From positions 1-42,790 of the forward strand of contig JALOPW010000014.1 of assembly GCA_025453675.1 (NCBI GenBank): a stretch of 42,790 nt of DNA. The letters are read 5' to 3'. Both the position numbers and the translations under genes were made by a program. The DNA is from Methanolinea sp. (GTDB lineage Archaea > Halobacteriota > Methanomicrobia > Methanomicrobiales > Methanospirillaceae). The notes beneath the pieces were generated by a model. The model did not search any database. It was not told the DNA's origin and saw nothing but the letters and a program-made list of their open reading frames with translations. Below, one piece after another: positions 20,721 through 27,597 of the stretch (position 1 is its first letter; the number at the start of each line of letters is the position of its first letter).

Positions 20721-20888
20721 AATCTGACTTTTTCGACTTCTCTAGAGGAGTATGTGGAAAAGTCCTATATTCCAGTTCAGAGAAAGGAGATTGAGCAACA
20801 TCCCATTACGAAGGAGAGGATCACCGGCTTATTCAACCAGGTGGTGTTCCCCGGAGGACCGGTATGCCAGTCAAGAAAGAGATCATAG
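20721..20888 (+). other. Protein-like open frame without a clear start, upstream of the PhoU-like gene
   Basis: A 55-codon frame reads LEEYVEKSYIPVQRKEIEQH followed by PITKERITGLFNQVVFPGG. Composition is protein-like, but there is no ATG and it overlaps the next gene's start in another frame. It could be the tail of a lost gene, an N-terminal part of the next protein disconnected by a frameshift, or chance. Confidence 0.25.
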
Positions 20889-22807
20889 AAGAGCTCGGCG
20901 AAGAGGGGTTGATACTCCCCGCGCTCGTAAATTCCGCGCTGGCCGCAAATGACCGGATCAAGTACTACTTCACCCTCCTCCAGACGGCCCAGGCGCGGGC
21001 AGAGAACCCCCATGCGGATTTCTCCAGCCTTCGGGTGGAGAGGGAGAGTGCCGGGATCGAGAATCCCCTCTATGACCGGGTGGTAGCTGAATCGGAGGTA
21101 TTGAGAGAGGGGATCTCCCATATCCCCCATGCCTCCCGCATCCTCGAAGAGATAAAAAACAGCCTCATGGAGATGGCGACCCCCCTCCTTTCCCGGGACA
21201 ATGCAGATGCAGTGGCCCTGGAGGAGCGGTTGCGGCTCCTGGAAAAGGGCATTCCCCCCGGTGAGGGTGACATTGTGGAGAAGAAGGTGATCGAGGCGAT
21301 CACTTCTGCTCACCAGGGAGACGGCGATACCATTCACATCCTGGTGATGGACATGCACCGGGCCCTGAACCAGCTGCAGGGAGAACTTGCAAGCGAGAGT
21401 ATTGACGGGGCTATGACCTACCTCCTCTCTGTCGAGGATAAAGACCTGGTCATGGCGTTCATGTCGGGTATCAGGCGCACTGCGCCCCTGAAGTTCGACC
21501 ATCCGGGCCTTGGGACCACCGCGACCAGGAACGGCCAAAAACTCATCCTCCAGAACGATATCGGGATGACTGACGCCCACGTGCTCGTGATCAACGTGGT
21601 GGACCGCTCCGCGACCGTCATCTATACCGATATCCATATGCCGAGGCTGCAGTTTTTCCAGAGCCTCTTTGAAGGCCAGGGGGTCACCTGGGGGGACACG
21701 CTCTCGAAGAAGGGAGCAGCCACGTTTGAAAAGAAGATTTACCACCTCTCCACCGGCACGTATACCGCATCAGGGAAGGATGACCTGGCCCGCTTCCTCG
21801 CATTCACCGGATCACGCCTGGTCTTTTTGATCGACTGGAACCGGGCCAGGAAGAGGCTCCGGAATTTCCTCCTCACCAAGGACGCAGTCGGTGTCCTGAA
21901 ATGGGCGGCAGACAACGACTTCGGGCACATGGGATTCCTCATTCTCGGCGGGGAGAAGATGGTGTACGACGCGCTGGAGATGACCTCCCGTGTCCCCATG
22001 CGCTACGGGGAGCCGCTCCACCAGATCCTGGGCCGTGAGAAGAGTATCGAGTATTTCCAGTGGGTACTCAGGGTCTCGACCACCGGGCTCCTCCAGAACC
22101 AGTCCCGCCTGCTCATCCAGGACGAGATCAAGGCCGAATTGCTGCGCTTCTTCAGATCGGCGCATGAAGGACTGATGGAGATCTGCGAGGAGCACGCGAC
22201 TCTCACCATCAGCGTGGCGACCATTGTCAGGGAGGCACTACAGCATATCCAGACTGGGGAGAACGGGGCATTCATCTCCAGGAGCGCCCAGCGGGCGAAA
22301 AGGTGGGAGAGCGAGGCGGACCTGGCCGTGACCAAGGTGCGCACTCTCTCCAGAAGGATAGAGAACGCCGATTTCTACTCCCAGCTGATCTTCACCGCTG
22401 ACGATGCACTTGACTTCCTGGAAGAGGCATCGTTCTACGTGACCCTGATCCCATCCGTCACCTCCTCGAGAAAAATCAACCAGTCCCTGGTGGAGATGGC
22501 GGAACTCGCGGAGAAGAGCGCACAGGAGTTCCTGAAGGCACTGATCGCCTCCCAGTATGTGTATAAGGGGTACAGCAGGGATGACATGCAGGAGTTTCTC
22601 CAGGCGGTGGACCATGTCCTTTCTCTTGAGCACCAGTCAGACGAGGCCCTGCGATTGGCCCAGAAGACCATCCTCGTAGAGTCCAGGGACTGGAAGGAGA
22701 TGCAGGTCTACGGCGACCTCGCCCGGACTATCGAGGAATCCACGAATTCGCTGATGAAGGCGGTGTTTCTCCTCCGCGACGATATCATGGAGAGGATGAA
22801 CCGCTAG
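20864..22807 (+). CDS. Large PhoU/DUF47-like protein with unknown N-terminal region
   Basis: 647 aa. Residues about 440-640 are all-helical with paired acidic and basic heptads (RWESEADLAVTKVRTLSRRI, LEHQSDEALRLAQKTI), as in PhoU/DUF47 proteins that regulate phosphate uptake. The first ~430 residues are soluble and mixed alpha/beta and match no family I recognise; there is no signal peptide or membrane segment. GGAGG precedes the ATG. It ends ten bases before the PPDK-like gene, and the two are very likely one operon. PhoU and a phosphohistidine protein together suggest phosphate or phosphotransfer control (inference). Confidence 0.75.
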   Translation: MPVKKEIIEELGEEGLILPALVNSALAANDRIKYYFTLLQTAQARAENPHADFSSLRVERESAGIENPLYDRVVAESEVLREGISHIPHASRILEEIKNSLMEMATPLLSRDNADAVALEERLRLLEKGIPPGEGDIVEKKVIEAITSAHQGDGDTIHILVMDMHRALNQLQGELASESIDGAMTYLLSVEDKDLVMAFMSGIRRTAPLKFDHPGLGTTATRNGQKLILQNDIGMTDAHVLVINVVDRSATVIYTDIHMPRLQFFQSLFEGQGVTWGDTLSKKGAATFEKKIYHLSTGTYTASGKDDLARFLAFTGSRLVFLIDWNRARKRLRNFLLTKDAVGVLKWAADNDFGHMGFLILGGEKMVYDALEMTSRVPMRYGEPLHQILGREKSIEYFQWVLRVSTTGLLQNQSRLLIQDEIKAELLRFFRSAHEGLMEICEEHATLTISVATIVREALQHIQTGENGAFISRSAQRAKRWESEADLAVTKVRTLSRRIENADFYSQLIFTADDALDFLEEASFYVTLIPSVTSSRKINQSLVEMAELAEKSAQEFLKALIASQYVYKGYSRDDMQEFLQAVDHVLSLEHQSDEALRLAQKTILVESRDWKEMQVYGDLARTIEESTNSLMKAVFLLRDDIMERMNR

Positions 22808-22817
22808 GAGAATGGTG

Positions 22818-24422
22818 ATGGCAGTAAAAACGTACCCCCGTCTGGTCACTTTCGGTTGCGGCTTCGAGGAGAGTGTCCCGGCCGAAGAGTTCGGCAACAA
22901 GGCCGCACACCTCGCAACCATTGCGTCCCTTGGGGTCAGGGTACCCCCCGGTTTCTGTCTCGGGGTGACCCTCTGCGAGGAGTACTTCGGGTCAGGTGAG
23001 ACGCCGCCTCCCGATCTCCCGGACCTCCTGAAGAATGGGATTGCCCGCCTTGAGAAGGCCACGGGGCTCTCGTTTGGCAGCAGCAGGAGGCCGCTCATCG
23101 TCTCGGTGCGGTCCGGCGCCCCGGTCTCCATGCCCGGGGTGATGGAGACCCTGTTGAACATCGGGCTCTCCCGGGACGCGGTGCGTGGCCTCATCTCCCT
23201 TTCAGGAAATCCGAAATTCGCCTGGGATTCATACCGGAGGCTGATCCAGAACTTCGGGGAGGTGATATGCCACCACCCACCCACCCTTTACAGGACAGCG
23301 CTTCGTGAGGTCATGGAGAGCGAGGAGGTGGAGGATGAGGTGGAGCTGGATGCACACTCTTTCCGTGAACTGGCCAATGAGTATGAAAGGATATTCGCCC
23401 AGAACGGGGGCGGAAAATTCCCCGACAGTGCCAGGGTACAGCTCGGGCAGGCGGCAGAAACAGTCATCCGATCCTGGGAAAGCCCCCGGGCAGAGGCGTT
23501 CCGGCGGCTCAACCTCATCCGGGAGGCCCGGGGTACCGCGGTCACCGTGCAGGTGATGGTCTTTGGAAATATGGGCTCCCGCTCGGGGGCAGGGGTGGCC
23601 TTCACCAGGAATCCATGGCAGGGACACAACCGTATTTTGGTGGATTTCAAGTTTGGAGCACAGGGTGAGGACGTGGTGTCAGGGGATCAATCCGTCAGCA
23701 CCCAGAACGAGTTCCAGGACGCGCTCCCCGAGGCCTTTGCAGAGCTGACGGGTATTGCAAAGACACTGGAATCGTACTACAAGGACATGCAGGACCTTGA
23801 GTTCACCATCCAGAACGGGGAACTCTACATCCTGCAGACCAGGAGCGGGAAGCGTTCCCCCTATGCGGCATTGAAGATCGCCGTGGACCTCTGCCAGGAA
23901 GGGGTGATCTCCCCGTCGGACGTGATCTGGATGCTCCGGGAGGTGGATCTCGATGCCATCTCAATCCAGAGGGTCCGGACCAGGGACCATCCCATCGCGG
24001 TGGGCATTCCTGCATCGGGAGGCGTTGCCGCCGGAGACATCGCACTCTCCAGCGCCCGTGCGGAGGAGATGGAGTCCCTGGGTCGGGAGGTCATCCTGGT
24101 CAGGGAGACCCCTTCCCCTGATGATATCCCCGGCATCAAGGCAGCAAATGCACTCCTCACTGCCAGGGGGGCCAGGACCGCCCATGCTGCGGTGGTCGCC
24201 CGGCAGATGGGAAAAGTCTGCGTGGTCGGATGCGGGAGCCTCGTCATAGACGAGGGCAGGCGGCGATGCCTGGTCGGCGGGCAGGAATTCAGGGAGGGGT
24301 CCAGGATCACCGTCGACGGGAATTCAGGGAACGTGTTCGCGGGGGAAGTGGAACACTCGTCTGAGCAGCCCCGCCAGCTCATTGCCATGGTGAGGGAGTG
24401 GGAGCGCTCCCTGCAGTTGTAA
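22818..24422 (+). CDS. PPDK-like protein lacking the PEP/pyruvate barrel
   Basis: 534 aa. The N-terminal ~370 residues are a pyruvate phosphate dikinase ATP-binding domain (VRSGAPVSMPGVMETLLNIG, SRSGAGVAFTRNPW, QDLEFTIQNGELYILQTR). Residues about 390-510 are the swivelling phosphohistidine domain with TARGARTAHAAVVARQMGK, acceptor His456. Full PPDK (about 870-900 aa) has a C-terminal TIM barrel that makes pyruvate from PEP; here the protein ends after the swivel domain. The phosphoryl acceptor must therefore be another molecule or protein. ATG at 22818 has GGAG at 22807-22810; ATG at 22812 is too close. Confidence 0.85.
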   Translation: MAVKTYPRLVTFGCGFEESVPAEEFGNKAAHLATIASLGVRVPPGFCLGVTLCEEYFGSGETPPPDLPDLLKNGIARLEKATGLSFGSSRRPLIVSVRSGAPVSMPGVMETLLNIGLSRDAVRGLISLSGNPKFAWDSYRRLIQNFGEVICHHPPTLYRTALREVMESEEVEDEVELDAHSFRELANEYERIFAQNGGGKFPDSARVQLGQAAETVIRSWESPRAEAFRRLNLIREARGTAVTVQVMVFGNMGSRSGAGVAFTRNPWQGHNRILVDFKFGAQGEDVVSGDQSVSTQNEFQDALPEAFAELTGIAKTLESYYKDMQDLEFTIQNGELYILQTRSGKRSPYAALKIAVDLCQEGVISPSDVIWMLREVDLDAISIQRVRTRDHPIAVGIPASGGVAAGDIALSSARAEEMESLGREVILVRETPSPDDIPGIKAANALLTARGARTAHAAVVARQMGKVCVVGCGSLVIDEGRRRCLVGGQEFREGSRITVDGNSGNVFAGEVEHSSEQPRQLIAMVREWERSLQL

Positions 24423-24442: not shown

Positions 24443-25804
24443 TCAGTGCTCCCTGCCCGGCTCTGAACCATCATCCTTCTCACGGTTCAGCCGGTACGAT
24501 GCGTATTTCATCAGCGGGTAGACCCCGTCAGTCATGGGATGCACCTCCATGAACCGGTTGAATTCATGGACAGTCACCCCGAGTCTCATGAGAAAGGACT
24601 GATAGGCGGCAATGATGCCGGCAGCTGGCCCGGCAGTGTACACCCCGTGGATATCTCCCGAACCTCTCGAGACGAGGATACTTGCCATCCCGGTCCGCCC
24701 GTTCGGCACGGACCAGAAAGTCCCCGGTCCAGCGGGGCCGGGGGTCCCGAATGCCACCTCGTCGTCGCTCTGATCTCCTTCGACGAACGCGTACTCCGAA
24801 GCGAGGTTCATGGACTGGGGGACGGGTATGCCATCCGGGGGAGGGTCACGTCCCAGGATGGAGGCGGCCGCCACCGTGCCTTCGTACCGGGCGACAGGGG
24901 TCAGGCAGCGCGAACCGGTCACATCCCCGCAGGCATATACGTCAGGATGGCTGGTGGCCATCGACCGGTCCACGATGATCCTCCCGTCCGCTCCCTTCAC
25001 GATCCCCGTGACCATGCTGGAGTTGGGGACCAGCCCCGCGGCCAGGAACACCCCGTCACAGGGGACGGGCACCTCACCCTCAGCGGTGATGAGTACAGCC
25101 CTGCTGACCATACCCTCGCCCTCCAGCCGGCTGACGCGACACCCCTCGTGGATCTGCACGCCGTCAAGATCTCTCTTCGCAAGGTCGCGGAGCCGCGGAT
25201 TGAGTTCCTTTAAAAACGTGCTGCGGACTGCAAGGTCCACCTCGGCTCCGAATTCCCTGAAAATAAATGCGAATTCGGCGGCCATAATTCCTCCGCCGAT
25301 CACCAGGAGGTGGTCAGGGACTTCCCGCATGGAAGAGAGGGCATGGGGATGATACACCCCCTGCAGGTGAATCCCCGGGATATCCGGGATCCGGGGAAGA
25401 GAACCGGTGGCGACGATGATCTTCTCTGTATCAACACGCTCCCCGTCCACGTACAGGGAATTTCCCTCTACCCTGCCCTCGCTCCCCTGCCAGACCTGCA
25501 CCCCGCAATTCCTGGTCTCTGCATCCAGGACCCTGGCGATTTTTTGTTGCACCGAGGCCATCCCGGAGAGAGTCTTTGGGAATGAGAATTGTGGGGACCG
25601 GTCCAGGATACCGAGTGATACCAGGGTCCGGGATTCGTGGAGATGCCTGGCGATATCGTTGAGAGCACACACTACCATGCAGCCATGGTGGAGACACTGC
25701 CCGCCGAGGCCCCCCTTCTCGACCAGGGCCACCTCCCTGCCGGCCATGGCCAGCTGCATGGCAGCGATCCGTCCTGCGGGCCCTCCGCCAAGAACTCCGA
25801 TCAT
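24443..25804 (-). CDS. FAD-dependent pyridine nucleotide-disulfide oxidoreductase
   Basis: 453 aa, size of dihydrolipoamide dehydrogenase. FAD motif GGGPAG at 6-11, redox cysteines in GGQCLHHGC (Cys37 and Cys42), NAD motif VIGGGIMAAEFAF, and YACGDVTGS for the second FAD contact. The C-terminal catalytic motif of lipoamide dehydrogenases, HPTxSE, reads HPMTDG, so the His stays but the Ser and Glu do not. No lipoyl-dependent dehydrogenase complex is nearby. It may be a different disulfide or persulfide reductase. The unknown gene upstream ends eight bases away, so they probably share a transcript. Confidence 0.85.
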   Translation of the reverse strand: MIGVLGGGPAGRIAAMQLAMAGREVALVEKGGLGGQCLHHGCMVVCALNDIARHLHESRTLVSLGILDRSPQFSFPKTLSGMASVQQKIARVLDAETRNCGVQVWQGSEGRVEGNSLYVDGERVDTEKIIVATGSLPRIPDIPGIHLQGVYHPHALSSMREVPDHLLVIGGGIMAAEFAFIFREFGAEVDLAVRSTFLKELNPRLRDLAKRDLDGVQIHEGCRVSRLEGEGMVSRAVLITAEGEVPVPCDGVFLAAGLVPNSSMVTGIVKGADGRIIVDRSMATSHPDVYACGDVTGSRCLTPVARYEGTVAAASILGRDPPPDGIPVPQSMNLASEYAFVEGDQSDDEVAFGTPGPAGPGTFWSVPNGRTGMASILVSRGSGDIHGVYTAGPAAGIIAAYQSFLMRLGVTVHEFNRFMEVHPMTDGVYPLMKYASYRLNREKDDGSEPGREH

Positions 25805-25812
25805 GGGCCGGA

Positions 25813-26784
25813 TCAGAAGATCTCCACGCCTTCGTCCATGGGTTCAGCCAGGACTTCTCCGGTATTGGCATTCACTTCCACGATCTTCTTCCCCCTCACC
25901 TGCCATATGGGGATGTATACCTGCTGCATCTGAAGCGCAATGTTCTTTTTGTCCGGTTTCATCACCCGCTCCTCGTAGGAGATGGCATCCCCGATCACCT
26001 GCTTGATCCGGATCTTCTGGGTCAGCCCGTCGATCACCCCTGCGACAACCTTCTCCATGGCCTCATCCCTTGTGAGGCGGGACTGCACGATCTCGGCACC
26101 CTGGGGGACCGCTGCCTCGACCACCGCTTTCCAGTCGGCATTCATGCTGTTCCCGTTAATGGCATTGATCCCACCGCTCCCCTCCGAGTCGAAGGGAACG
26201 CGGTGCTCCTTGTATACCTGTTCGCCAGAGCTCTGGTAGGAGTAGAGCCAGTAAGGCATGAACTTAAGGCTTGCCTGCCCCTGGATCCTGGCAATCTGTT
26301 CGGCAGCCTGCTTCTGGACCCTGATGGGAAGGTGAGAGATGACCATTCCCGTGGGCTCTTCTTCCTGTGCTGCCGGGACTCCCCTGCTCACGGGGGATGC
26401 GGTACTGATCCCTGGATGTTCCCTCTCTCCGTCAGAGAACGAGAGTGCCATGGGGCTGTCCAGTATCTTGTACAGTTCCGCCTCTCCCGAGTACCTGATA
26501 AACTCGTCACTTCCCCAGAGAATGCAATTTTCCGCGCGGATGCTGGTATTGAGGGAGAATAGGAGTTTTTTATACGTGATCTCCTGCCCCTCCCGCATCA
26601 GACGGTATGAAGCGCTATTATACTCCTCGATCTCTCCTGGATCATTGCTACACAATACCATCAGGTATTCGTTCTCCCGTTCGGCCAGGTCAAATGGATC
26701 CTCTAATGTGTTCACCGAAAAGCCTGCCGTCTCCAGGATAGACTTTATTGCATTTCTCGCCTTTTCCCGAACCTTTTCATCCAT
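25813..26784 (-). CDS. Conserved-looking protein of unknown function
   Basis: 323 aa, soluble, no signal peptide. I do not recognise a family. The first ~110 residues form an alpha/beta region with LMVLCSNDPGEIEEY and CILWGSDEF; 110-150 is a Pro/Glu-rich linker. The C-terminal ~170 residues include LKFMPYWLYSYQSSG and end with YIPIWQVRGKKIVEVNANTG, which resembles the strand-turn-strand of PepSY-like or related small domains. The two halves may be separate domains. It is the upstream partner of the disulfide oxidoreductase. Confidence 0.7.
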   Translation of the reverse strand: MDEKVREKARNAIKSILETAGFSVNTLEDPFDLAERENEYLMVLCSNDPGEIEEYNSASYRLMREGQEITYKKLLFSLNTSIRAENCILWGSDEFIRYSGEAELYKILDSPMALSFSDGEREHPGISTASPVSRGVPAAQEEEPTGMVISHLPIRVQKQAAEQIARIQGQASLKFMPYWLYSYQSSGEQVYKEHRVPFDSEGSGGINAINGNSMNADWKAVVEAAVPQGAEIVQSRLTRDEAMEKVVAGVIDGLTQKIRIKQVIGDAISYEERVMKPDKKNIALQMQQVYIPIWQVRGKKIVEVNANTGEVLAEPMDEGVEIF

Positions 26785-26850: not shown

Positions 26851-27597
26851 ATGAATCTCCCCCTCAAGTTCGTGCATACCCGGATAGAAGAGTATGCCAT
26901 GCAGGTGACCTTCGATCCCCGGGAAGGGAGAGGAACAGTGGTCTACAACCTGTCCCTGATAAAAAAGGCGGACCTCGAGTATGCCATCTCTGTCATGAAG
27001 GATGCCTTCAAGGCAGGGATATGTGTCAGCGGTCTCGTAAGGTTCATTGAGGAGGGCGCACCAGTGGGAGATTTCAGGGTCCCTCCGGGTCACTGTGCCA
27101 TCATCACCATGTGCAGCTCCACGCTTGACGGGGTCCTCCTTCGGAAAGGGGTTCCCTCGAATCCCATCGGGGGCGGGGTGGTGGAGATAGAGAGCCGCAT
27201 CCCAAGGCGGTTCACCCACATGATCCTGTACGAACATACCACCATCGATCCTCTCCAGGCCCTGATATCCCAGGAGATCACTTCGGTCAACGAGATGATG
27301 CGGCGGGGAAGCGGGAATATCCTCGCAAATATCCGGCAGTGCCACATGGAGGCCGAGAACCTGGTGGGGGAAGTGATCGATGACCTTGCAGGCAGCAGTT
27401 TCTCGGGGATCCTGGATGTCGGCCTTCCCAACACGCCTGCACTAGGAGTCACCGTAGACCCGCAGTACATGGGAATCGTGGCTCTCGGGGGTACAAATCC
27501 CATGGCTGCCATCAAGGAGGGGGGAGTCTTTGTGATGACCCAGGCCATCAAGGGGTTGATGGATGTGCAGGAGATGCAGGAGATACTTGAATTTTAA
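26851..27597 (+). CDS. Stand-alone NrpR regulatory domain (DUF128)
   Basis: 248 aa. The whole protein corresponds to the NrpR effector domain: VPPGHCAIITMCSSTLDGVL, GGGVVEIESRIPRRFTHMI, GVTVDPQYMGIVALGGTNPMAA. In methanogens NrpR represses nitrogen-assimilation genes and binds 2-oxoglutarate through this domain. The winged helix that normally precedes it is absent, so this is an NrpRII-type partner or a divergent sensor that needs another DNA-binding protein. It is convergent with the TrmB gene, their stop codons overlapping. Confidence 0.85.
   Translation: MNLPLKFVHTRIEEYAMQVTFDPREGRGTVVYNLSLIKKADLEYAISVMKDAFKAGICVSGLVRFIEEGAPVGDFRVPPGHCAIITMCSSTLDGVLLRKGVPSNPIGGGVVEIESRIPRRFTHMILYEHTTIDPLQALISQEITSVNEMMRRGSGNILANIRQCHMEAENLVGEVIDDLAGSSFSGILDVGLPNTPALGVTVDPQYMGIVALGGTNPMAAIKEGGVFVMTQAIKGLMDVQEMQEILEF

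Follow-up and report, generated by a model that had tools for sequence, protein, structure and literature searches.

What does a pyruvate, phosphate dikinase (PPDK) act on when it has no phosphoenolpyruvate (PEP)/pyruvate barrel, and what is the role of the large PhoU-like protein encoded beside it? This question is raised by two adjacent genes in a 42,790-nucleotide stretch of DNA from Methanolinea sp. (hereafter the window, meaning the whole of that stretch), which corresponds to contig C42 in an archaeal genome of 1.84 Mb that is 94% complete. The upstream gene encodes a large partner, which we call the giant, and the downstream gene encodes a short PPDK. We tentatively propose, giving it close to an even chance, that the pair is a two-protein PPDK-type phosphotransfer enzyme in which the giant would hold the site for the second substrate, perhaps polyphosphate or a related phosphate compound. 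By computation, we found the pairing itself, the missing barrel, the retention of residues for the first half-reaction, an unassigned domain in the partner, and polyphosphate genes at some loci; these genes, which flank the pair in part of the loci, are what is new here. The pair, whose genes stay together near-strictly in archaea and bacteria, includes an extensive and highly conserved protein region to which no family or fold is assigned. It allows a concrete test of acceptor choice by PPDKs without a barrel, which were recently found to act as kinases in one lineage, and hints at a possible unrecognized enzyme of polyphosphate or pyrophosphate metabolism.

Pairing and distribution of the two genes

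The list of open reading frames (ORFs) confirmed both genes at the coordinates given in a preliminary description of this DNA (Table 1), with 4 nt between the stop codon of the giant and the start of the short PPDK. A search of 199 genomes of the order yielded giant matches in 33, one of which (G146) was weak and partial and was left out of the pairing counts. Among the matches listed (E up to 5e-134), 31 of these genomes had a short PPDK, in frames of about 530–900 aa measured stop to stop, and in 31 of 31 it followed the giant immediately and in the same orientation, with match-to-match gaps of 6–50 nt, or 175 nt in one genome with a broken giant. Weaker PPDK matches were listed in part, and a more divergent short PPDK is possible in genomes of the order. 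The lone giant without a short PPDK (G166) lies 55 bases from a contig end. A scan of genome contigs located 473 loci encoding a relative of the giant, and locus counts throughout refer to the best 80 of these 473, some of which are contigs also covered by the order search. In 77 of the 80 loci the short PPDK comes after the giant in the same orientation, while the remaining three contigs end first; its end is visible in 71 of the 77, and the contig stops inside it in six. Conservation of the pair, which the preliminary description had named as a check on its proposal, was therefore found in both samples. The 4-nt gap and this conservation suggest putative cotranscription of the two genes.

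Record titles among the loci include the archaea Methanolinea, Methanoregula, Methanoculleus, Methanosarcina, Methanolobus, Methanoperedens, and Thaumarchaeota and the bacteria Burkholderiales, Thiobacillus, Accumulibacter, Geobacteraceae, and Planctomycetota; the nearest named relatives of the window carry the titles Methanolinea and Methanoregulaceae. The giant was rare in wider bacterial samples, where one of 345 genomes in the first and two of 369 in the second carried it at full length, counting the centre genomes, and two short matches inspected from these samples were DUF47 genes, not giants. It was also matched in three plasmid records, in two of them over at least 80%, and both of these plasmids (from an alphaproteobacterium and a betaproteobacterium) carry the giant and the short PPDK side by side, annotated as 'DUF47 family protein' or 'phosphate transport regulator' and as 'PEP/pyruvate-binding domain-containing protein', respectively. 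This patchy spread with intact pairing fits transfer of the pair as a unit. The mirror-tree correlation between giant and short PPDK was 0.83, a value expected from co-inheritance and no proof of contact. Locus L119, titled Thermoleophilia bacterium (isolate Chersky_299), has a methanogen-like pair of 51% identity with Ppx and CHAD genes adjoining, and is possibly a mis-binned archaeal contig.

The short PPDK and the missing barrel

The preliminary description had assigned the downstream protein an ATP site and a phosphohistidine domain without a barrel, an architecture on which Pfam, the TIGR01828 profile, and structure alignment agree. The Pfam scan returned PPDK_N (PF01326, E 2e-38) and PEP-utilizers (PF00391, E 1e-20) and no further domain; TIGR01828 aligned over positions 16–517 of 865 with 535.7 bits, under its equivalog cut-off of 843 bits; and a solved PPDK structure aligned with residues 9–512. 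The two best PEP synthase models scored just 104 and 83 bits, and by these scores the short PPDK is closer to PPDK than to PEP synthase. It shares 38–44% identity with the full-length PPDKs that we fetched, over the part common to both.

We compared 25 truncated with 30 full-length PPDKs at eight positions (K30, R100, D328, E330, Q342, R344, T456, and H458), which we take to have the catalytic roles known from PPDK enzymology. H458 was invariant in all 25 and all 30, as were R100, E330, Q342, and R344, while K30 was kept in 24/25 and 30/30 and T456 in 25/25 and 29/30. The catalytic histidine had been placed at residue 456, which is this conserved threonine; the histidine is residue 458. The truncated proteins thus match PPDK at these positions except at K30 and at D328, which is weighed below, and by alignment the residues for ATP, phosphate, and histidine chemistry are nearly all retained. 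In a tree of the same 55 sequences, with midpoint rooting only and one long branch (T_L207), a single 100/100 branch separated the truncated, barrel-less proteins from the full-length PPDKs. Full-length PPDKs were fetched from 17 pair-carrying genomes, two of them Thaumarchaeota, and therefore the short protein is not the sole PPDK in those hosts.

A truncated PPDK as such is already described: VadK (Rv1127c), a histidine kinase of mycobacteria and other actinobacteria published in 2026, is reported to autophosphorylate its catalytic His422, to act through enzyme contacts, to be tied to methylcitrate-cycle enzymes, and to be made more soluble by its operon partner, Rv1126c (PMC13400623). VadK and the short PPDK are alike in joining an ATP-grasp to a phosphohistidine domain without a PEP/pyruvate barrel and in having a gene partner, whereas the words PhoU, DUF47, polyphosphate, and archaea are absent from its main text; with 413 bits, the short PPDK falls under the 456-bit cut-off of the VadK-type equivalog model NF004531/PRK05878. 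The preliminary description had called the locus a candidate undescribed system, which no longer applies to the truncated PPDK; our literature search, in which few subscription journals were covered, did not turn up a paper that describes the large partner or the pair. Because of the kept residues and the precedent of VadK and PPDK, the first step would be phosphorylation of His458 from ATP and phosphate, with release of AMP and pyrophosphate.

The missing barrel could in principle be encoded elsewhere and complete a split PPDK, so that the pair would make PEP. Up to residue 512 the resemblance to PPDK is clear, and a gene could have been missed in a genome that is 94% complete. However, the barrel family PEP-utilizers_C (PF02896), absent from both giant and short PPDK in the Pfam scan, has a single match in the window's own genome, within a 756-aa frame that also holds its own PPDK_N and is a PEP synthase; a stand-alone barrel, which the preliminary description had proposed to look for, was not found in this genome. 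We extended this search to 53 genomes with the pair, of which 32 came from the order search and 21 were among the 39 that underlie other loci; most PF02896 matches in them were in frames as long as those of PtsI, PEP synthase, or PPDK. Only four frames shorter than 530 aa occurred among the matches listed: G525 contributed two, of 464 and 493 aa, G192 one at the edge of a contig, and G534 one sub-threshold match. Given also that 17 carriers already have a full-length PPDK, we regard a split PPDK as very improbable. A cryptic barrel within the giant was likewise considered and found no support: the predicted model of its residues 1–440 matched no barrel fold in a search of the Protein Data Bank (PDB), and its predicted secondary structure, judged without coordinate inspection, is unlike a barrel.

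We give next to no credence to a decayed, functionless PPDK remnant. The absent barrel and a few broken giants are compatible with decay, but the catalytic residues are kept and the pairing is near-strict across archaea and bacteria; a pseudogene or truncation artefact is not supported, given the 77 of 80 paired loci and the kept residues. The broken giants lie at G117:C234:4173-6105, in three frames, and at L132:8001-9887, with an early stop, and reflect either sequencing error or decay.

The giant and the polyphosphate genes beside the pair

On its own, the window's giant gave no family match above cut-off in domain and profile searches. Its C-terminal ~210 residues are PhoU/DUF47-like, as the preliminary description had recognized from their helices: Foldseek matched 3l39 (E 3e-4, TM 0.84 on target) and the further PhoU-like structures 2iiu, 4q25, and 2olt, a profile search reached 3l39 with E 1e-4, and Pfam PhoU_div (DUF47, PF01865) was found at E<=0.01 in 21 of 26 giant homologues, the window member not among them. 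The full AlphaFold2 (AF2) model had a predicted local distance difference test (pLDDT) score of 87.5 and a predicted template modeling (pTM) score of 0.64. Both the fold and the acidic residues, which are invariant in the alignment (E482, D486, D513, D517, E589, and D593), resemble those of PhoU_div/DUF47 proteins. Two stand-alone DUF47 proteins that we inspected are 209 and 215 aa long and encoded beside a PHO4 transporter, whereas the window's domain ends a 647-aa protein. Thaumarchaeal DUF47/Pit is the subject of a separate study (PMC9239043).

The other ~430 residues, which had been singled out as having no known family, kept that status. AF2 modeled residues 1–440 from 51 sequences (pLDDT 85.7, pTM 0.79), and the model had no PDB match at E<0.001; a weak YbjN/AmyR resemblance of the N-terminus reached a probability of 0.35–0.69 for residues 1–440 and up to 0.90 in the search that matched the PhoU-like structures. 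Across the 51 sequences, 45 columns of this region are invariant. Invariant residues of the giant include six histidines (H158, H165, H213, H239, H258, and H355) as well as D155, D232, D256, D324, R122, R261, R329, and K330. The aligned giants are 45–63% identical to that of the window, and a Geobacteraceae homologue is 43% identical over the full length. A 334-aa protein at L213:3665-4669 (G146:C33) is weakly related to giant residues 77–318 (E 1e-12) and has no PhoU domain, and G146 has no short PPDK among the PPDK matches listed; by sequence, this protein may be a stand-alone relative of the giant's N-terminal domain.

In the second step of the mechanism that we favor, the swivel domain would deliver phosphate to the giant instead of to a PEP barrel, the N-terminal ~430 residues would form the second-substrate site, and the PhoU/DUF47 domain would bind or sense a phosphate compound. 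The main rival to such an enzyme is a pure phosphorelay without a small-molecule product, in which the short PPDK would act, like VadK, as a histidine kinase with the giant as its protein target, and phosphate transport or polyphosphate enzymes would be controlled by whether the PhoU-like protein is phosphorylated. We consider this rather unlikely. Barrel-less VadK is reported to autophosphorylate, to act via enzyme contacts, and to have an operon partner (PMC13400623), stand-alone DUF47 genes adjoin PHO4-type phosphate transporters, and the six invariant histidines could accept phosphate; however, 45 invariant columns over ~430 residues would resemble an active site more than a target site, and PPDK-type ATP chemistry would be a costly switch.

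Two-component dikinases for small molecules offer a second comparison, namely HpeHI, CreHI, and PpsAB, of which HpeHI acts on phenolic substrates (PMC12167813). They resemble the window's pair in that the chemistry is split over two proteins, one with the substrate site, and in that there is no PEP barrel, and they differ in that their swivel is joined to the substrate domain and their ATP-grasp is separate and PEP-synthase-like. Unlike in HpeHI and PpsAB, ATP-grasp and swivel are on one PPDK-like chain in the window, and the partner combines a PhoU/DUF47 domain with an N-terminal part that matched no fold.

Evidence on the second substrate comes from the flanks of the pair. All-against-all clustering of flanking ORFs raised CHAD, Ppx/GppA, and PPK1 families, the other clusters being mostly antisense ORFs of the pair, lineage-specific genes, ABC transporters, and similar common families. 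With hidden Markov models built from those same three clusters, at least one polyphosphate family was present beside the pair in 16 of the 80 loci (1.05 Mb), which include close relatives, vs 0 of 40 control loci (0.61 Mb; Fisher 0.001), which were author-picked around PEP-utilizers_C genes of pair-carrying genomes, some genomes being used twice. PPK1 is a neighbor of the pair in eight of the 80 loci. A Pfam scan covered 210 selected flanking ORFs (116 upstream, 94 downstream) of 44 loci, none of them titled Methanolinea; counts per side are lower bounds, since single matches may be missed. It returned at least six Ppx-GppA_III (four upstream, two downstream), at least five CHAD (three and two), at least four Ppx-GppA (three and one), at least two PP_kinase upstream, and at least two CYTH and one PPK2 downstream; SBP_bac_1 and two hydrolase families had four each among the families listed. 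CHAD domains bind polyphosphate and are often encoded in operons of polyphosphate enzymes (PMC6537752).

The arrangement looks operon-like in three loci with Pfam-confirmed neighbors: PPK1-CHAD-Ppx-giant-PPDK in L115 and CHAD-Ppx-giant-PPDK in L155, all on the same strand, and PPK1, CHAD, and a phosphoesterase/Ppx_III protein preceding the pair on the same strand in L128. A Ppx neighbor was also Pfam-confirmed in L119, L153, L160, and L104. In the order search, six genomes belonging to three families had PPK1 at a distance of 1.3–6.9 kb from the giant. Co-occurrence of PPK1 and the pair had p 2e-7 over all 199 genomes, which is mostly phylogeny, and p 0.003 outside the window's family. These neighbors lend some support to the link with phosphate or energy status that the preliminary description had suggested. 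In the third and boldest step of our proposal, polyphosphate or a related phosphate compound might be the acceptor or donor, and the pair might add phosphate to such a pool or, in reverse, convert AMP and pyrophosphate into ATP; PPDK chemistry is reversible according to the introduction of the VadK paper (PMC13400623), and therefore the pair could also make ATP in this way. Just downstream of the pair in Methanosarcina sp. Ant1 (L116:6847-9417), one protein has CYTH, Ppx-GppA_III, and CHAD matches.

A further and doubtful possibility is a polyphosphate-linked kinase proper, a PPDK-derived histidine phosphotransferase whose partner would exchange phosphate with polyphosphate (AMP + pyrophosphate + polyphosphate <-> ATP + phosphate). 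If true, it would link polyphosphate reserves with AMP and pyrophosphate in hosts that include methanogens, Thaumarchaeota, and, among bacteria, Accumulibacter. PPK1 also works via phosphohistidine, and neither giant nor short PPDK has its PP_kinase domain in the Pfam scan. The carriers L155 (Ppx and CHAD beside the pair) and L160 (Ppx) had no PPK1 match, as one would expect of a pair able to replace PPK1, but both are metagenome-assembled genomes whose completeness is uncertain, and no search for PPK2 was made in them.

The flanks also bear on whether the giant instead phosphorylates an organic metabolite, as HpeH does phenols, with the polyphosphate neighbors reflecting shared phosphate-stress regulation only. 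That two-component phenolic dikinases are on record (PMC12167813) and that 64 of the 80 loci have no polyphosphate neighbor argue for it. We nevertheless judge it distinctly unlikely, given that the flank clustering and the Pfam families listed showed no pathway genes that go with the pair from lineage to lineage, and that no organic substrate is evidently common to the hosts, which include methanogens, a methanotroph plasmid, Thiobacillus, and Accumulibacter.

Several observations weigh against a two-protein enzyme acting on polyphosphate. The polyphosphate families were picked after they had turned up beside the pair, and the Fisher value flatters them; within the flank examined, those 64 loci lack PPK1, Ppx, and CHAD alike. 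The window's own genome is unlinked, with PPK1 and CHAD together on another contig. Ribonucleotide reductase, with at least five matches upstream in related Burkholderiales, is as frequent as CHAD and, in the upstream scan alone, is ahead of Ppx-GppA_III (five vs four) among the families listed. Six of 39 carriers, three of them Thaumarchaeota, had no PPK1 match, and PPK1 is near-universal in the window's own family (25/26 vs 43/49, p 0.41), where co-occurrence is uninformative. D328 is Glu in 9 of the 25 truncated PPDKs and Asp in 30 of 30 full-length ones, and a PhoU-type domain would fit a purely regulatory role just as well. The phosphotransfer device of the preliminary description thus stands as regards adjacency, the missing barrel, and the kept residues, while its activity is predicted and its phosphoryl acceptor is one that we infer.

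Coordinates and neighboring features

Table 1. Features of the gene pair, in positions of the window.
Feature	Position	Strand	Basis
Putative ribosome-binding-like site (GGAGG) upstream of giant	20853..20857	+	sequence read; function inferred
Large partner (giant), 647 aa	20864..22807	+	ORF call; homologue searches
Giant N-terminal ~430 residues (boundary at 430 approximate)	20864..22153	+	alignment, AF2, PDB fold search
Giant C-terminal PhoU/DUF47 (PhoU_div) domain	22154..22804	+	Foldseek, Pfam in homologues, profile search, alignment
Short PPDK, 536 aa: ATP-grasp (PPDK_N) and phosphohistidine swivel	22812..24422	+	ORF, domain, profile, and structure alignments
Codon of catalytic His458	24183..24185	+	position computed from ORF start 22812

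A GGAG motif at 22807-22810 overlaps the stop codon of the giant, and the ATG at 22818, whose spacing from this motif is better than that of the start at 22812, is a possible alternative start of the short PPDK.

Among the other loci, a ribonucleotide-reductase-like large chain is encoded upstream of the pair on the opposite strand in L137, L139, L140, L142, L143, L147, and L150, at most ~0.4 kb from it in five of these seven. In the window, a 248-aa protein (26851-27597, + strand) is an NrpR regulatory (NRD1_2) domain in which the Pfam scan matched no DNA-binding domain. A 323-aa protein (25813-26784, − strand), which had no Pfam match above cut-off, adjoins an FAD/NAD oxidoreductase (24443-25804). 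Of the 80 loci, 10 have the oxidoreductase close behind the pair, and nine have the 323-aa protein there.

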